From Ruania rhizosphaerae (GTDB taxonomy: Bacteria > Actinomycetota > Actinomycetes > Actinomycetales > Beutenbergiaceae), in NCBI RefSeq assembly GCF_009805705.1, contig NZ_VSMB01000001.1, positions 310,001 through 374,000 on the forward strand: DNA of 64,000 nt, read 5' to 3'. The position numbers and the translations under genes were made by a program. Positions within the stretch are counted from its first letter, which is position 1. The number at the start of each line of letters is the position of its first letter. The notes under the pieces are model-generated. The model did no database searches. It had not been told where the DNA came from and saw only the letters and a program-made list of their open reading frames with translations. Of the stretch, positions 24,573-45,743 are shown one piece after another.

Positions 24573-24647
24573 GCCGAAAGTTCGGCCCCTGAGGGGAGAA
24601 AGGGTCGAAAGTTCGGCCCCTGAGGGGTGAAGGGGCCGAACTTTCAG
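24573..24647. repeat. Tandem plus inverted repeat, terminator-like
   Basis: CGAAAGTTCGGCCCCTGAGG occurs at 24575 and again at 24606, each followed by GG, and GGGGCCGAACTTTC (24633-24646) is the reverse complement of the 14-bp GAAAGTTCGGCCCC core. On the minus strand, downstream of the TauE gene, one left arm can therefore pair with either of two right arms, with T-rich CCCTTTCTCCCC between them. Probably the terminator of the TauE transcript. Confidence 0.65.
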
Positions 24648-24675
24648 CCCATGAGCGGCGGGCCAGAACAGCAGA

Positions 24676-40267: not shown

Positions 40268-40631
40268 GCTCCCGACTCTACTGGCGCAGCGCCGGTGGTG
40301 CGATCCCTCGGCGGTGAGCCATGCATCACACCGGCCATCACGGTTGCGTGGCCCTCCCATCCATCCCTCGCGTTCGAATCCCGTCACGGCAATCGAATCC
40401 CGTCACGGGGCGCCGGAGCGGGATTCGGGCGCCGGAGCGGGATTCGAACGTGGTCGGCCCCGATGGGGCAGCTGGGGTGCCCTGCCCGCACACAGCCATG
40501 ACAGACTGGGCCTTGCGGGGGCGCCGGTGACGCCGGTGCCATCGCTGTCGCCGCCGTGGGCTACCGTGTGATAAGCAGCCCTCAAACTCACCAAGTAGGC
40601 GTAAAACCCGCTTCACTCTCCTGGAGGTGCC
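40268..40631. other. 364-bp divergent intergenic region of lpdA and the GNAT gene
   Basis: Holds no convincing gene. The middle is occupied by the nested repeat at 40371-40450; the right part, 40560-40620, is locally AT-richer (GTGTGATAAGC, CAAACTCACCAAG) and probably contains the GNAT promoter. No tRNA cloverleaf could be folded on either strand despite T-arm-like sequence. Confidence 0.5.
40371..40450. repeat. Nested direct and inverted repeats with tRNA T-arm-like arms
   Basis: Outer arms CGTTCGAATCCCG (40371-40383) and CGGGATTCGAACG (40438-40450) are perfect reverse complements. Inside, TCGAATCCCGTCACGG repeats the left arm and GGCGCCGGAGCGGGATTCG occurs twice in tandem on the right. The GTTCGAATCCC core equals the consensus T-loop of many bacterial tRNAs. 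Confidence 0.7.
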
Positions 40632-41770: not shown

Positions 41771-42187
41771 TCACTCCTCAGTCAGGGCGCGGGCAGTCTG
41801 TGCAACGAACTGACGGATCGGATCCAGGTCGGCGAGCCGAGCGATAACGATGGCGTTGTCGACGTCCGCGTATTCGTGCACGAGCACGTTGCGGAAGCCG
41901 ACAGCTCGACGCATCGAGGCAGCCAGGTCCGCGTCGAGCACACCGTGCACGGAAAGCAACCTCATCGCGTCCCCGTTGTCCGCGGGCGGGCCCCAACCGG
42001 AGGTGGAGCACAGATGCTGAGCGACGTCCACACACGACTCGATCATCGTGACGAATGAGTACTTGACGCCAGGCAACCACATGGCGTCCTGACGACGGAC
42101 CTGCTCGGCGGAGGCTTCACGCTGAAGTACCTGCACGTCGTCGGTGATCCGGCGCAACGACCGTTGAATGCGGAGCGGATCAACCAT
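41771..42187 (-). CDS. hepT: HepT-like ribonuclease toxin (DUF86)
   Basis: A 138-aa all-helical HEPN protein. The catalytic motif R-x4-H-x-Y is intact in RNVLVHEYADVDN, so it should cleave RNA as a dimer. The ATG at 42187 lies inside the antitoxin gene, overlapping by 8 bases (ATGGTTGA), the standard order antitoxin then toxin. In the established MntA-HepT system the antitoxin adds AMP groups to the tyrosine of this very motif and so silences the toxin; both required parts are present here. Confidence 0.88.
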   Translation of the reverse strand: MVDPLRIQRSLRRITDDVQVLQREASAEQVRRQDAMWLPGVKYSFVTMIESCVDVAQHLCSTSGWGPPADNGDAMRLLSVHGVLDADLAASMRRAVGFRNVLVHEYADVDNAIVIARLADLDPIRQFVAQTARALTEE

Positions 42188-42569
42188 GGCGCACGCTCGC
42201 GAGAAACTCTCGGTGCGCACGCTCGAATCGGGGGCGCTCGTCGAAGTAGATTCTCCGTGTCATTGCCTCCCACGCCACTCGCTCGGGTTTGCGCTCCTCG
42301 AAGAGGAGGATCCCCCCAGCGGCGACACGACCCGCCAGTTCCAGCGGAGCAGTGTCCAGGACGAGCAGATCGACTCCCGGTTCGAGGAGGACGTCGGATG
42401 CGAGGAGATCGCGGCGACCGAAGAACGCGGCAATGTCCACGTCCGAGTGCGCCCTGTGGCGCCCTGTGACGCGGCTACCGTGCAGGTAGCCGAACCGAGC
42501 GCCAGCAGCACGCAGCGAGACCACCGCACTCTCGACCACCGGCCCGACGTTCTCCATAGTGGCCATCAT
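42180..42569 (-). CDS. mntA: MntA-type nucleotidyltransferase antitoxin
   Basis: A 129-aa minimal nucleotidyltransferase. The active-site signature GS-x9-D-x-D reads YLHGSRVTGRHRAHSDVDIAAFF, followed by the third carboxylate in PGVDLLVLDTAP. These residues bind Mg-ATP and transfer AMP to HepT. The start is uncertain among ATG at 42569, 42566 and 42557, all within five codons, and the ribosome binding site is weak. It starts 34 bp downstream of the aminotransferase gene and overlaps hepT. Confidence 0.85.
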   Translation of the reverse strand: MMATMENVGPVVESAVVSLRAAGARFGYLHGSRVTGRHRAHSDVDIAAFFGRRDLLASDVLLEPGVDLLVLDTAPLELAGRVAAGGILLFEERKPERVAWEAMTRRIYFDERPRFERAHREFLASVRHG

Positions 42570-42603
42570 CTCAGCCACGCGTGGCCCAGGCGAGCACTCC
42601 GCG

Positions 42604-43662
42604 CTATCCCACGCCTGGAGCGGAGCCGGCCAGCACCGCCACGGCCCGCTCCACGTCGTCAACCGTTGTGTGCACATGGAAGGAGAAGCGCACCTTCCCC
42701 GCCCTCCCGGCCGTGACGATGCCGGCATCAGCAAGTGCCGCTGCGCCGCTCTCGGTCATCGGGAGTGAGACGATGGCCGAGTCGGTCTCCCCGAGTCCCA
42801 GGCCCGTGGTGAACTGGTTCGCGAGCCCGACGGCGTGCTGATGCAGTGCCGCGATCCCGATCTCGGTCAACAGTTCCAGCGCGGGTTCCGCGCCCACCCA
42901 GGCCGGCCATGCTGGTGAGACGTCGAACCGGCGGGCACTCTGAGCCAGTCGCAGCGGGCCGCCGTAGATCGAGGACCATCGGTCCTCGCCCGCGTACCAC
43001 CCGGCCTGCGAGGGGACCACGGCGTCGATCAGGTCCTCGCGCACACTCAGGTAGCCGGTTCCCCGCGGTGCCAGCAGCCACTTGTACCCCGCGCACACGG
43101 TGAACGCGACGTCGTCGAGGTCCACCGGGAGCCAGCCTGCGGCCTGGGTGAGGTCGAGCAGGATCTCGGTGCCGTGGGCAATGCACGCATCCCGCAGCGC
43201 CGGCAGGTCGAGTATCGCCCCGTCGGCGGACTGCACCATCGCCACGGCGACGAGCGCGGTCTGGGGACCCACCGCCGTCGGGAGATCCGCCAGCGGTACC
43301 TCCCGCACCCGCACCCCGCGCGCCTGCTGGGCGAAGAACGGGAAGCTGACGGACGTGAACTCGCCGCGGGCCACGAGCACCTCGGCACCGTCGGGGACCC
43401 ACGCTGCGAGCGGGGCGATCATCGCCGAGGCCTGGCTCCCGATCGCCACGGTGTCAGGGTCGAGGCCAACGAGGGCCGCGTACAGCTCCCGGCACCGGGC
43501 GATGACGACGTCCAGATCCTGCGGCTGTACCTGCCCGGCCGCCCAGGCGTCCAGGTGTGCGGCGAGCGCCTCGCGGGTGCCGCGGCACGGCAGACCCATC
43601 GAGGCAGCATTCAGGTAGATCCCGTCGGGGACGAACTGCTCGGCCCAGGGCCAGTGGTTCAC
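42604..43662 (-). CDS. Class V aminotransferase (cysteine desulfurase-like)
   Basis: A 352-aa PLP enzyme. N-terminal YLNAASMGLPCRGTREAL, PLP-phosphate and ring contacts in QSADGAILDLPALRDACIAHGTEILLDLTQAAGW, and Schiff-base Lys194 in CAGYKWLLAPRGTGYL place it in class V fold type I, near CsdA/EgtE/kynureninase-like families. There is no active-site Cys loop of a true desulfurase, so the reaction is open. The gene is between the AAA-ATPase (43693) and mntA on the same strand with short gaps (30 and 34 bp), possibly one transcript, though a functional link with either is not apparent. Confidence 0.85.
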   Translation of the reverse strand: MNHWPWAEQFVPDGIYLNAASMGLPCRGTREALAAHLDAWAAGQVQPQDLDVVIARCRELYAALVGLDPDTVAIGSQASAMIAPLAAWVPDGAEVLVARGEFTSVSFPFFAQQARGVRVREVPLADLPTAVGPQTALVAVAMVQSADGAILDLPALRDACIAHGTEILLDLTQAAGWLPVDLDDVAFTVCAGYKWLLAPRGTGYLSVREDLIDAVVPSQAGWYAGEDRWSSIYGGPLRLAQSARRFDVSPAWPAWVGAEPALELLTEIGIAALHQHAVGLANQFTTGLGLGETDSAIVSLPMTESGAAALADAGIVTAGRAGKVRFSFHVHTTVDDVERAVAVLAGSAPGVG

Positions 43663-43692
43663 GATGGTGATCCTATGCGCCTCGCTCGCGTA

Positions 43693-44946
43693 TCAGGGCC
43701 GCAAGGAAGCGATCGGAACCACATCGACTCCGTCCGGCCGGCGGTAGCCGAACCCATTGCCAGTGACAACCACAGTCGCAGCGGGAGGCCCGATCCGGTC
43801 GGTGTCGATCTGCGCGATCGCACGCTTCAACGATTCGGCACCGGCTTCGACAGCACCGGCGCCCAGCTTGATCTCACATGCGATCCACGCGCCTCCGGGG
43901 AACTCGACCACCGCATCGATCTCTCGGTCGTTGGAGTCCCGGTAGTGAAAGACGCGACCCCCACGCGGTTCTGCGTAAACCCGCAGGTCACGAACGACCA
44001 TGGACTCGAACAGCAAGCCGAGCGTGTGGAGATCGCGTACCAGCGTGGACGAATCGGCTGCCATGCCGGCCGCAGCGAGCGACGGGTCCACGAAATGACG
44101 CTTCACCGACTTGCGCAGCCGTGCCGCTGATCGCAGCGCTGTGTTCCACGGCTCTTGGTCTTCGACCACCATCAGACGCTCCAAAGCGGCAAGGTAGTCA
44201 CGGACAGTATCTCGCGCAACGCCCGTGGATCCTTCCCCGGCAACATCGCGTGCGAGCGTCGACACCGAGGCTTCGCTGGCCACGTTCCGGGCGAGAGAAG
44301 ACAGCAGTCGACTGACCCGCACCGGGTCACGACGACCACCGGTCACACTCGGCACATCCACTTCAGCGAGCAGCCCCAGGTAGTCCCGCGCATACGCACG
44401 CGCAGCTGCGATGCCGTAGCTCCGGGAGATCGGCCATCCGCCTCGAACCACGAGATCGGCCAGATCTCCTGCTGACAGGTCGCTCCGCGGCGCTCGCGGA
44501 ACTTCGCCGTCGAGGAGGTCACCCAGACTGACCTCGCCCGTCGAGACCCGAGATTCCCACAGCGACATCGGACGCATTCTGATGCGCGAGAACCGCCCTG
44601 CACCCGAGTGCCGGCGTACATCGTCGCGCGGCACTGCGGAACCAGTCAGTATGAACTGCCCAGGCTCACCGCGATCATCTACGGCATGCCGAACGTGGTT
44701 CCAGATCTCCGGATGGTCCTGCCACTCATCCAGCAGACGTGGAACTCTGCCTGACAGGAGGAGCCCAGGGTCAACCGCCATGGCGTCCGGAACGGACGGA
44801 TCGGTGTCCATCTGAAGCTGACTAGCAGCGACCCGCCGTGCCGTCTCGGTCTTCCCGCACGACTTGGGCCCCTCGATCAAGACCGCACCAGCTCGGTTCA
44901 GGCTGTCCCGCAGCCCACCATCGACAACCCGAGCCAGATACGCCAT
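43693..44946 (-). CDS. AAA ATPase with DUF4143 domain
   Basis: A 417-aa protein. The N-terminal P-loop ATPase has Walker A GPKSCGKTETA, Walker B RLLDEWQD and sensor ILTGSAVPRDD. The C-terminal DUF4143 domain ends with a nuclease-like pattern REIDAVVEFPGGAWIACEIKLG (D...E-x-K), as in PD-(D/E)XK folds. The function of this widespread family is unknown; members are often mobile, patchily distributed accessory genes. Immediately upstream stands an array of five repeats with 23-bp period (44969-45074) that must contain the promoter. No ribosome binding site precedes the ATG, so the message may be leaderless. Confidence 0.88.
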   Translation of the reverse strand: MAYLARVVDGGLRDSLNRAGAVLIEGPKSCGKTETARRVAASQLQMDTDPSVPDAMAVDPGLLLSGRVPRLLDEWQDHPEIWNHVRHAVDDRGEPGQFILTGSAVPRDDVRRHSGAGRFSRIRMRPMSLWESRVSTGEVSLGDLLDGEVPRAPRSDLSAGDLADLVVRGGWPISRSYGIAAARAYARDYLGLLAEVDVPSVTGGRRDPVRVSRLLSSLARNVASEASVSTLARDVAGEGSTGVARDTVRDYLAALERLMVVEDQEPWNTALRSAARLRKSVKRHFVDPSLAAAGMAADSSTLVRDLHTLGLLFESMVVRDLRVYAEPRGGRVFHYRDSNDREIDAVVEFPGGAWIACEIKLGAGAVEAGAESLKRAIAQIDTDRIGPPAATVVVTGNGFGYRRPDGVDVVPIASLRP

Positions 44947-44968
44947 GATGCCATCTTGTCACAGTACT

Positions 44969-45074
44969 CGTCACTTTGCAGAACCTGTGCCCGTCACTTT
45001 GCAGACATCCCGCTCGTCACTTTGCAGGATCTACTCTCGCCACTTTGCAGACGGTGCGTTCGTCACTCTGCGGC
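44969..45074. repeat. Five 14-bp repeats at exact 23-bp spacing (iteron-like)
   Basis: CGTCACTTTGCAGA begins at 44969 and 44992 (identical), 45015 (last base G), 45038 (CGCCAC...) and, degenerate, 45061 (CGTCACTCTGCGGC). Every start is 23 bp from the last; the 9-bp spacers are unrelated to each other. The fifth copy runs over the stop codon of the response-regulator gene. Repeats read on one strand only and are not palindromic. They begin 23 bp from the ATPase start codon. Confidence 0.92.
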
Positions 45075-45743
45075 GACAGAGCCGGGCCGGATCAGCCCCG
45101 ACTCGTACGCGAGCACCACCAGTTGCGACCGGTCCCGCACATCGAGTTTGGTGAGCAGCCGGTGCACGTAGGTGCGCGCCGTCGCCGGGCTGAGATACAG
45201 GGTGGCGGCGATCTCGTCGTTGGACTGCCCGCGCCCGACGCAGGCGAGCACCTCGGTCTCCCGCTCGGTCAGCTCGGCGAGCATCTCCTGGGCCGCGACG
45301 GCCGGTCCACCGCCGGCGTTCTCGGTCACCGCCTGCACCAGCGCACGCAGCGCGGCCGACCCGAGCGCCCGCTCCCCCGACGCCACGGTCCGGATCGCCT
45401 CCCGCAACCCCTCCGGGGAGACGTCCTTGAGCAGGTACCCGCTCGCCCCGGCCCGGACCGCCGCGAGGATCTCGGCGTCCTCATCGAAGGTGGTCAGCAC
45501 CAGCACCCGCACCTGGTCCAGCTCCGGGTCCGCGCAGATCGCCCGCGTGGCCTCGATCCCGTCCATCTCGGGCATCCGCAGATCCATCAGCACCACGTCC
45601 GGCCGCGTGCGGCGCACCTCGGCCACGCCGGAGCGCCCGGTACCGGCCTCGGCGACCACGTCGATGTCACCGTCGTGGGTGGCGAGCGTGCGCAGCCCCG
45701 TGCGCACCAGGGCGGAGTCGTCCACGAGCGCCAGCGAGATCAT
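45063..45743 (-). CDS. NarL/FixJ-type response regulator
   Basis: A 226-aa regulator. The receiver domain (residues 1-120) has the phospho-acceptor Asp in PDVVLMDLRMPEMDG, the acidic pair in LVDDSA and the Lys in GYLLKDVSPEG. The LuxR-type HTH at the C-terminus reads LTERETEVLACVGRGQSNDEIAATLYLSPATARTYVHRLLTKL. Its ATG overlaps the stop of the kinase gene (ATGA). It ends inside the last repeat of the 23-bp array. Targets are probably its own promoter and the divergent multicopper-oxidase operon, by position. Confidence 0.93.
   Translation of the reverse strand: MISLALVDDSALVRTGLRTLATHDGDIDVVAEAGTGRSGVAEVRRTRPDVVLMDLRMPEMDGIEATRAICADPELDQVRVLVLTTFDEDAEILAAVRAGASGYLLKDVSPEGLREAIRTVASGERALGSAALRALVQAVTENAGGGPAVAAQEMLAELTERETEVLACVGRGQSNDEIAATLYLSPATARTYVHRLLTKLDVRDRSQLVVLAYESGLIRPGSVAAE

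Follow-up and report, generated by a model that had tools for sequence, protein, structure and literature searches.

The gene for an AAA_14/DUF4143 ATPase in Ruania rhizosphaerae is preceded by five evenly spaced copies of a short repeat, and arrays with a period of 22 or 23 bp stand in front of most genes in one clade of such ATPases. The evenly spaced repeats diverge along with the proteins, which suggests that these ATPases recognise DNA at their own genes. On the basis of these sequence comparisons, we regard the array as probably the operator of the ATPase gene, with the ATPase itself as the predicted binding protein and repressor.

The array lies on the minus strand at positions 44969..45074 of the window (the whole 64-kb stretch of DNA analysed), and its unit, read on the strand of the gene, is TCTGCAAAGTGACG. 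Its five 14-bp copies start at 44969, 44992, 45015, 45038 and 45061 on the plus strand, all steps being 23 bp. Copies 1 (gene-proximal, 44969..44982) and 2 (44992..45005) are exactly CGTCACTTTGCAGA; copies 3 (45015..45028) and 4 (45038..45051) have 1 mismatch each and copy 5 (45061..45074) has 3, and the 9-bp spacers between the copies are unrelated. In the 230 nt before the ATPase gene, the period score was z = 9.8 at period 23 (5 copies), relative to 4.8 for the best of 300 dinucleotide shuffles that served as the null; the 14-bp repeats at an exact 23-bp period, from which the original prediction started, are therefore real. This is the sole 22/23-bp array with z>=6.5 within the window, where two further arrays at that threshold have periods of 31 and 19. 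The exact 14-mer occurs at 2 sites in the 4.4-Mb genome, both inside the array. With up to 1 mismatch to CTGCAAAGTGACG there are 6 genomic sites, 4 of them inside the array, and with up to 2 mismatches 70 sites, versus 52 for a reversed-pattern control. The prediction had also placed a protein array on one face of the DNA. That part has to be given up: 23 bp corresponds to about 2.2 helical turns per step, so successive sites wind round the helix rather than lining up on one face.

The array is situated between the stop codon of a LuxR-type response regulator gene and the start of the ATPase gene. Since both genes are on the minus strand, the ATPase gene is the one whose promoter the array can occupy. 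We aligned 42 genes, chosen for an array ending 17-24 nt before the start, at their start codons and found T at -12 in 69%, A at -11 in 76% and T at -7 in 76% of them. This pattern reads as a -10 element for a transcript beginning at the start codon and points to a leaderless promoter, in which the last repeat (about -36 to -21 in the geometry of these 42 genes) covers the -35 region. At the locus in the window, copy 1 covers the -35 region (positions -36 to -23 relative to the start codon), and the putative -10 element is CAAGAT (44953..44958, minus strand; -12 to -7), in which A-11 and T-7 are kept; it is weaker than TANNNT and absent from the output of a consensus promoter scan. A leaderless transcript would account for the absence of a ribosome binding site, a feature already recognised when the sequence was first read.

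The array thus sits at the promoter of its own gene, with the last copy over the -35 region of the putative leaderless promoter, so that a filled array would be expected to shut the gene off. Such a shut promoter would keep the level of a dangerous AAA+-nuclease low, and invasion of the cell would release the repression. That the array represses rather than activates is a guess from its position. Alternatively, the period of 23 might merely reflect promoter geometry (the spacing from -35 to -10) or tandem promoters, because two hexamers separated by a 17-bp spacer start 23 bp apart and TANNNT occurs in some repeat units. This explanation is highly improbable: related clades have periods of 22 or 32/33 bp, as many as nine copies were counted in one array, the motifs differ from gene to gene, and several arrays from outside the actinobacteria end further upstream.

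The ATPase (417 aa; 43693..44946, minus strand) matched Pfam PF13635 (9e-33) and PF13173 (2e-10), and a Pfam scan at E 0.001 returned AAA_14 and DUF4143 only, not the Orc/Cdc6 family. An AlphaFold2 model was obtained from a 7-sequence alignment (pLDDT 82, pTM 0.86); prediction from the single sequence reached a pLDDT of 35 only. Reading the secondary structure of the model together with Pfam and structural matches, we assigned a predicted AAA+ domain (about aa 1-185), a winged helix (about aa 208-264) and a PD-(D/E)XK nuclease domain (about aa 306-411). The best Foldseek matches were the archaeal AAA+ protein SSO1545, Cdc6/Orc1 on origin DNA and the Can2 nuclease, with TM scores of 0.20-0.47; the match to 2qby_A (Cdc6/Orc1 on origin DNA) had an E-value of 3.2e-4 and a probability of 0.94 at a low TM of 0.22. 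A sequence search of the ATPase against solved structures gave no credible match. Across 47 proteins (the window ATPase and 46 array-linked homologues), the ATPase motifs and the PD-(D/E)XK active-site residues are kept: G31, K32, D73, E74, E342, D344 and K360 are invariant, and E358 is present in at least 90%. The nuclease-like D...ExK motif reported earlier (D344, E358 and K360) is therefore present.

The same protein matched the PADLOC profile PDC-S01 at 3e-64 over aa 2-383, nearly its whole length, and all 47 proteins of the set matched this profile at 1e-10 or better. The window ATPase is thus a member of the family of PDC-S01, a phage-defence candidate, and its own anti-phage role is that of a candidate only. 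According to the accessible text of one survey, PDC-S01 ranks fourth in frequency among the defences of all prokaryotes and consists of an ATPase fused to a PD-(D/E)XK domain, and validation is pending for most defence candidates of this kind (PMC12988326). Upstream arrays are unmentioned in the available part of that paper, and a word search of it turned up nothing comparable, whereas here one clade of the family has its own operator-like array.

In the R. rhizosphaerae genome there are eleven DUF4143 loci, 10 of which are preceded by a 22- or 23-bp array; the exception, L005, has no 22/23-bp array in front. The motifs of these arrays are mostly different, the pair L042/L043 scoring 0.62. We extended the comparison to genes from the ATPase family and 248 genomes of the order, drawn among the matches listed. 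A 22/23-bp array at z>=5 was found within 230 nt before the start in 100 of 124 DUF4143 ATPase genes; at this threshold the best period was 23 in 77 genes, 22 in 23 and 32/33 in seven. Control stretches further upstream reached z>=5 in 19 of 115 cases (4 at 22/23 bp), and those inside the genes in 5 of 124 (0 at 22/23 bp). Two of the four upstream-control matches at 22/23 bp, L133 and L144, are the far part of long arrays; the others are L057 and L094. The check proposed with the original prediction was a search upstream of DUF4143 genes; in this sample the period is common, and the motif differs between genes.

The order-wide count started from 134 genes, of which 128 had a usable ORF and 124 of these had 200 nt upstream. 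Left out beforehand were L006, L007 and L009 (the same genes as L161, L160 and L014) and L003, L022, L027, L029, L030, L032 and L039 (truncated, split or without the N-terminal part); L005 (open frame of 440 aa) was also left out of the 124, though it should count. The order-wide and phylum-wide picks, both drawn among the matches listed, comprised 29 and 30 loci, respectively, plus 80 table rows each, selected largely for having a full-length open frame. The best array had a period of 23 bp before L003, L027, L030 and L039 and other periods before L005, L029, L022 and L032. In L030, L003, L039 and L027, the ATPase open frame lacks the N-terminal part and the 23-bp array is kept; an array can thus outlive the full protein.

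A phylum-wide sample, taken by best Pfam scores and consisting mostly of other ATPase clades (110 genes, 106 with an ORF, 105 scanned), contained a 22/23-bp array at z>=5 in 9 of 105 genes (23 bp in 8, 22 bp in 1). Any array at this threshold was present in 26 of 105 genes, with 32/33 bp in 8, relative to 6 of 73 and 5 of 105 control stretches. Among plasmid homologues, 18 were examined out of 315 records matched; 8 carried a 22/23-bp array and 10 were below z>=5. The array-bearing ones are from Collinsella, Agrobacterium, Rhizobium (two), Pseudohalocynthiibacter, Spartinivicinus, Mycobacterium riyadhense and Sulfitobacter, and 22/23-bp arrays thus reach Alphaproteobacteria, Gammaproteobacteria and Coriobacteriia. 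In IMG/VR, all six distinct relatives of the window's clade had 23-bp arrays, two of them with seven copies (L303 was treated as a copy of L299 by equal length and score); L310, a relative outside this clade, had no array, and IMG/VR scans with single proteins as the query found no relative. In a tree of 244 proteins, which took 17 of the 18 plasmid genes (L206 was left out), 22/23-bp arrays were present in 110 of 139 members of one clade versus 6 of 105 outside it. Within the clade of 139, whose basal support is low (0.21), 16 arrays are weak and 13 members have no 22/23-bp array. The arrays occur mostly in particular clades of DUF4143 ATPases and are not universal.

Two other groups differ in their upstream regions. 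Some members of a separate ATPase group, most of about 433-447 aa, have 32/33-bp arrays, a period of about three helical turns (L121, L115, L290, L109, L104, L129, L285, L270, L283, L278, L232, L275, L072 and L220). L202, L203, L207, L210, L293 and L294 encode DUF4143 ATPases of about 386-391 aa without an array; by eye, the start codon in these six is abutted by an inverted repeat that is imperfect and about 37 bp long (CCTTGCA...TGCAAGG), and an inverted-repeat scan recovered four of them. Several of the plasmid homologues below z>=5 at 22/23 bp show such a repeat.

Motif similarity was compared with ATPase identity for 110 arrays. The Mantel rho was 0.12, a value reached in 0 of 1000 permutations (maximum 0.056). 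Mean motif similarity was about 0.30 at 30-40% protein identity, 0.41 at 50-60%, 0.50 at 60-75% and 0.81 above 75%, and below 40% identity the motifs look unrelated. With a motif counted as shared at a similarity >0.6, it was common to 14 of 16 genes (eight mutual pairs) whose nearest neighbour in another genome is at least 80% identical, and to 44% of the 43 genes whose nearest neighbour in another genome is 60-80% identical. For ATPase pairs within one genome, which average 36% identity, the motif was common to 5 of 126, near the 2.8% of random pairs (genome labels were assigned manually for part of the loci). The 88% identical pair L015/L016 scored 0.27, and both arrays contain CTCGACT by eye. 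Apparently, the motif tracks the ATPase and not the genome of origin, and neither the genome nor a single common regulator seems to determine it. Such differences in motif from one ATPase to another would let many paralogues share a cell without cross-regulation.

The conservation is concentrated in the repeat cores. At 70-80% protein identity (11 pairs; whole arrays aligned by total match), cores matched at 0.74 versus 0.41 for spacers, and above 80% identity (8 pairs) at 0.87 versus 0.57; the baseline at 30-40% identity was 0.42 versus 0.33. When the -10 element was used to set the register, the contrast was weaker, 0.50 versus 0.40 (8 of 11 pairs). Along the protein, aa 79-108 (in the AAA+ domain, between Walker B and sensor 1) showed the strongest added link to motif similarity (partial 0.19, bootstrap >0), followed by aa 229-252 (winged-helix helices; partial 0.14, bootstrap >0); both segments were selected following a scan, and their effects are small. 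For the nuclease domain and for the whole winged-helix segment (aa 205-265), the partial value was 0.05 with a bootstrap range including 0. At the level of single residues, no localised signal emerged from the mutual information of protein and motif in 53 genes (effective number 35), 15 of 68 genes with doubtful register having been left out.

We next consider where the window motif itself occurs. A relaxed scan for two units at 23 bp in the 248 genomes found, among the matches listed, the window array and one genome of another family; the reversed-pattern control gave none among the matches listed. In the second genome, the ATPase gene immediately following three copies encodes a 54%-identical protein and has a different gene neighbourhood. 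The original prediction had named an array beside unrelated genes as evidence against itself; the one other match listed for the 248 genomes precedes this 54%-identical ATPase. An exact double-unit scan of a large genome collection, which may omit records close to the window's own, produced one match (L044), in a betaproteobacterial MAG. It lies inside a hydrolase-like gene, no DUF4143 ATPase was seen by eye in the 8 kb around it, and we took it as a chance match.

At the locus in R. rhizosphaerae, the array and the ATPase gene appear alone as an inserted unit between the response regulator and aminotransferase genes (43676..45077, minus strand, limits approximate). In three genomes of the same genus (G019, G015 and G017), these two genes are adjacent, with 70 to about 260 bp and no ATPase gene between them. 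The sequence found only in the window starts at about 43676, 18 nt past the ATPase stop codon, and ends at about 45077, at the distal repeat; it encodes no gene beyond the ATPase and hence no regulator gene. The stop codon of the response regulator gene (45063-45065) is supplied by copy 5, and the protein ends ..RPGSVAAE, four residues later than in G017 (..RPGS). Six other genomes of the genus have no such array in the 200 nt after the response-regulator orthologue, and a gain in the window therefore appears likelier than a loss elsewhere. Downstream of the aminotransferase gene that follows the ATPase gene, there is a HepT/MntA-type toxin-antitoxin pair (41771-42734; HepT profile 1.9e-28, the MntA-like nucleotidyltransferase being below the curated cut-off).

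These results give good support to the core of the original prediction, that the array serves the ATPase and may be its recognition site within a self-contained unit: many homologues have their own arrays, the motif tracks the ATPase and the insertion contains no other gene. The binding itself is predicted.

A separate DNA-binding regulator of the host might read the array and control the ATPase promoter. A response regulator gene adjoins the array, and RptR is a precedent: in the accessible text, this small separate repressor controls a defence island via three 9-bp direct repeats (PMC12255303). We consider such a regulator unlikely. The inserted unit contains no regulator gene, and the six genus genomes with the response-regulator orthologue have no like array after it. 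As motifs mostly differ between paralogues of the same genome (5 of 126 pairs alike), roughly one regulator per ATPase would be needed.

Another idea is that a minimal mobile element, mobilised by its AAA+-nuclease, ends at the array or is cut and pasted there, promoter control being secondary. The array and ATPase gene were inserted alone between genes adjacent in relatives, and DUF4143 matches number at least 14 in several genomes from the order-wide sample. We take COG1373 to be the family of such AAA_14/DUF4143 ATPases. COG1373 appears in a list of transferred genes in the available part of PMC10782964, and PDC-S01 is said to have crossed between domains several times in that of PMC12988326. 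Nevertheless, we rate this explanation as rather improbable. Inspection of one site by eye revealed neither a matching repeat at the far end nor a target duplication, copies within one genome are mostly far apart in sequence (36% average identity), and the array has a fixed distance to the start codon and the -10 element in the 42 genes, which were chosen for that distance. Under the preferred reading, too, the array and its gene can travel jointly, as a single unit.

The arrangement, a DNA-binding ATPase next to direct repeats of about 22 bp, looks iteron-like, and the repeats could in principle be iterons or the partition site of a replicon. We find this extremely improbable, as the array lies among ordinary genes of a 794-kb contig and arrays precede ten of the eleven DUF4143 loci in one genome. 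A Pfam scan of the ATPase and five neighbours gave no match to Rep or ParA/ParB families; partition, one of the roles first proposed, is not supported.

For the preferred reading, an operator bound by the ATPase, we propose that several ATPase protomers would bind side by side on the 22/23-bp repeats via their AAA+ and winged-helix domains. Such binding would resemble that of archaeal Cdc6/Orc1 initiators on origin boxes next to their own genes. In haloarchaea, as described in the accessible text, each orc/cdc6 gene adjoins boxes of its own family, termed 'linkage-specificity' (PMC3528665); this is the closest published logic that we found, by analogy. The likeness, as far as that text goes, lies in the repeats beside the gene and several paralogues each with its own box, and would extend to the combination of AAA+ and winged-helix domains predicted for the window ATPase, whose Foldseek match to Cdc6/Orc1 has a low TM. 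The differences are also clear: the ATPases of the window type additionally have a nuclease domain, their Pfam matches are to other families, and the inverted boxes of Orc1/Cdc6 lie round an AT-rich unwinding element, whereas the arrays here are head-to-tail at a promoter. No replication role is suggested for the array ATPases. RptR, in the available part of its description, represses by cooperative binding to direct repeats at a defence promoter (PMC12255303), the similarity being that the promoter of a set of defence genes carries several direct repeats. RptR differs in being a separate, small repressor whose 9-bp repeats contain a palindrome; here, the unit contains no regulator and the repeats are 22/23 bp apart. 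Literature searches on DUF4143, COG1373 and PDC-S01, with subscription papers and bioRxiv largely outside their coverage, found no description of such arrays in the texts available, and the literature searched did not show which DNA, if any, PDC-S01-type ATPases recognise.

A bolder version, to which we give little credence, treats the array as an identity tag. Each AAA+-nuclease would assemble Orc-like on its own array, silencing its gene and parking the nuclease. Incoming elements bearing a related array or ATPase unit, or disturbing the balance by copying their DNA, would titrate or re-aim the nuclease, and the many mutually blind paralogues of one genome would form orthogonal, self-addressed units of defence or exclusion.

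PDC-S01-type ATPases are reported, in the accessible text, among the commonest candidate defence genes of bacteria and archaea (PMC12988326). If a large clade carries its cognate DNA in the promoter, the binding sites of many such ATPases could be read from sequence, and many candidate orthogonal protein-DNA pairs would become available. Array binding, promoter control and array-dependent ATPase or nuclease activity would then be the obvious first assay for the family. It would also be an independent bacterial case of the Orc1/Cdc6 logic, with an AAA+/winged-helix protein linked to its own repeats.

The two other periodic arrays in the window are of a different kind. At 40355-40450, there are tandem fragments like tRNA T-arms (GTTCGAATCCCG / CGGGATTCGAAC, period 19); a tRNA search of the 64-kb window found none, and the fragments could be the mark of an old integration site. 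At 24581-24672, three copies of a palindromic GGGCCGAAAGTTCGGCCCCTGAGGGG element are repeated with a 31-bp period. A similar stretch is seen by eye upstream of the ATPase gene L037, and the element may be a dispersed intergenic repeat of the Ruania genome.
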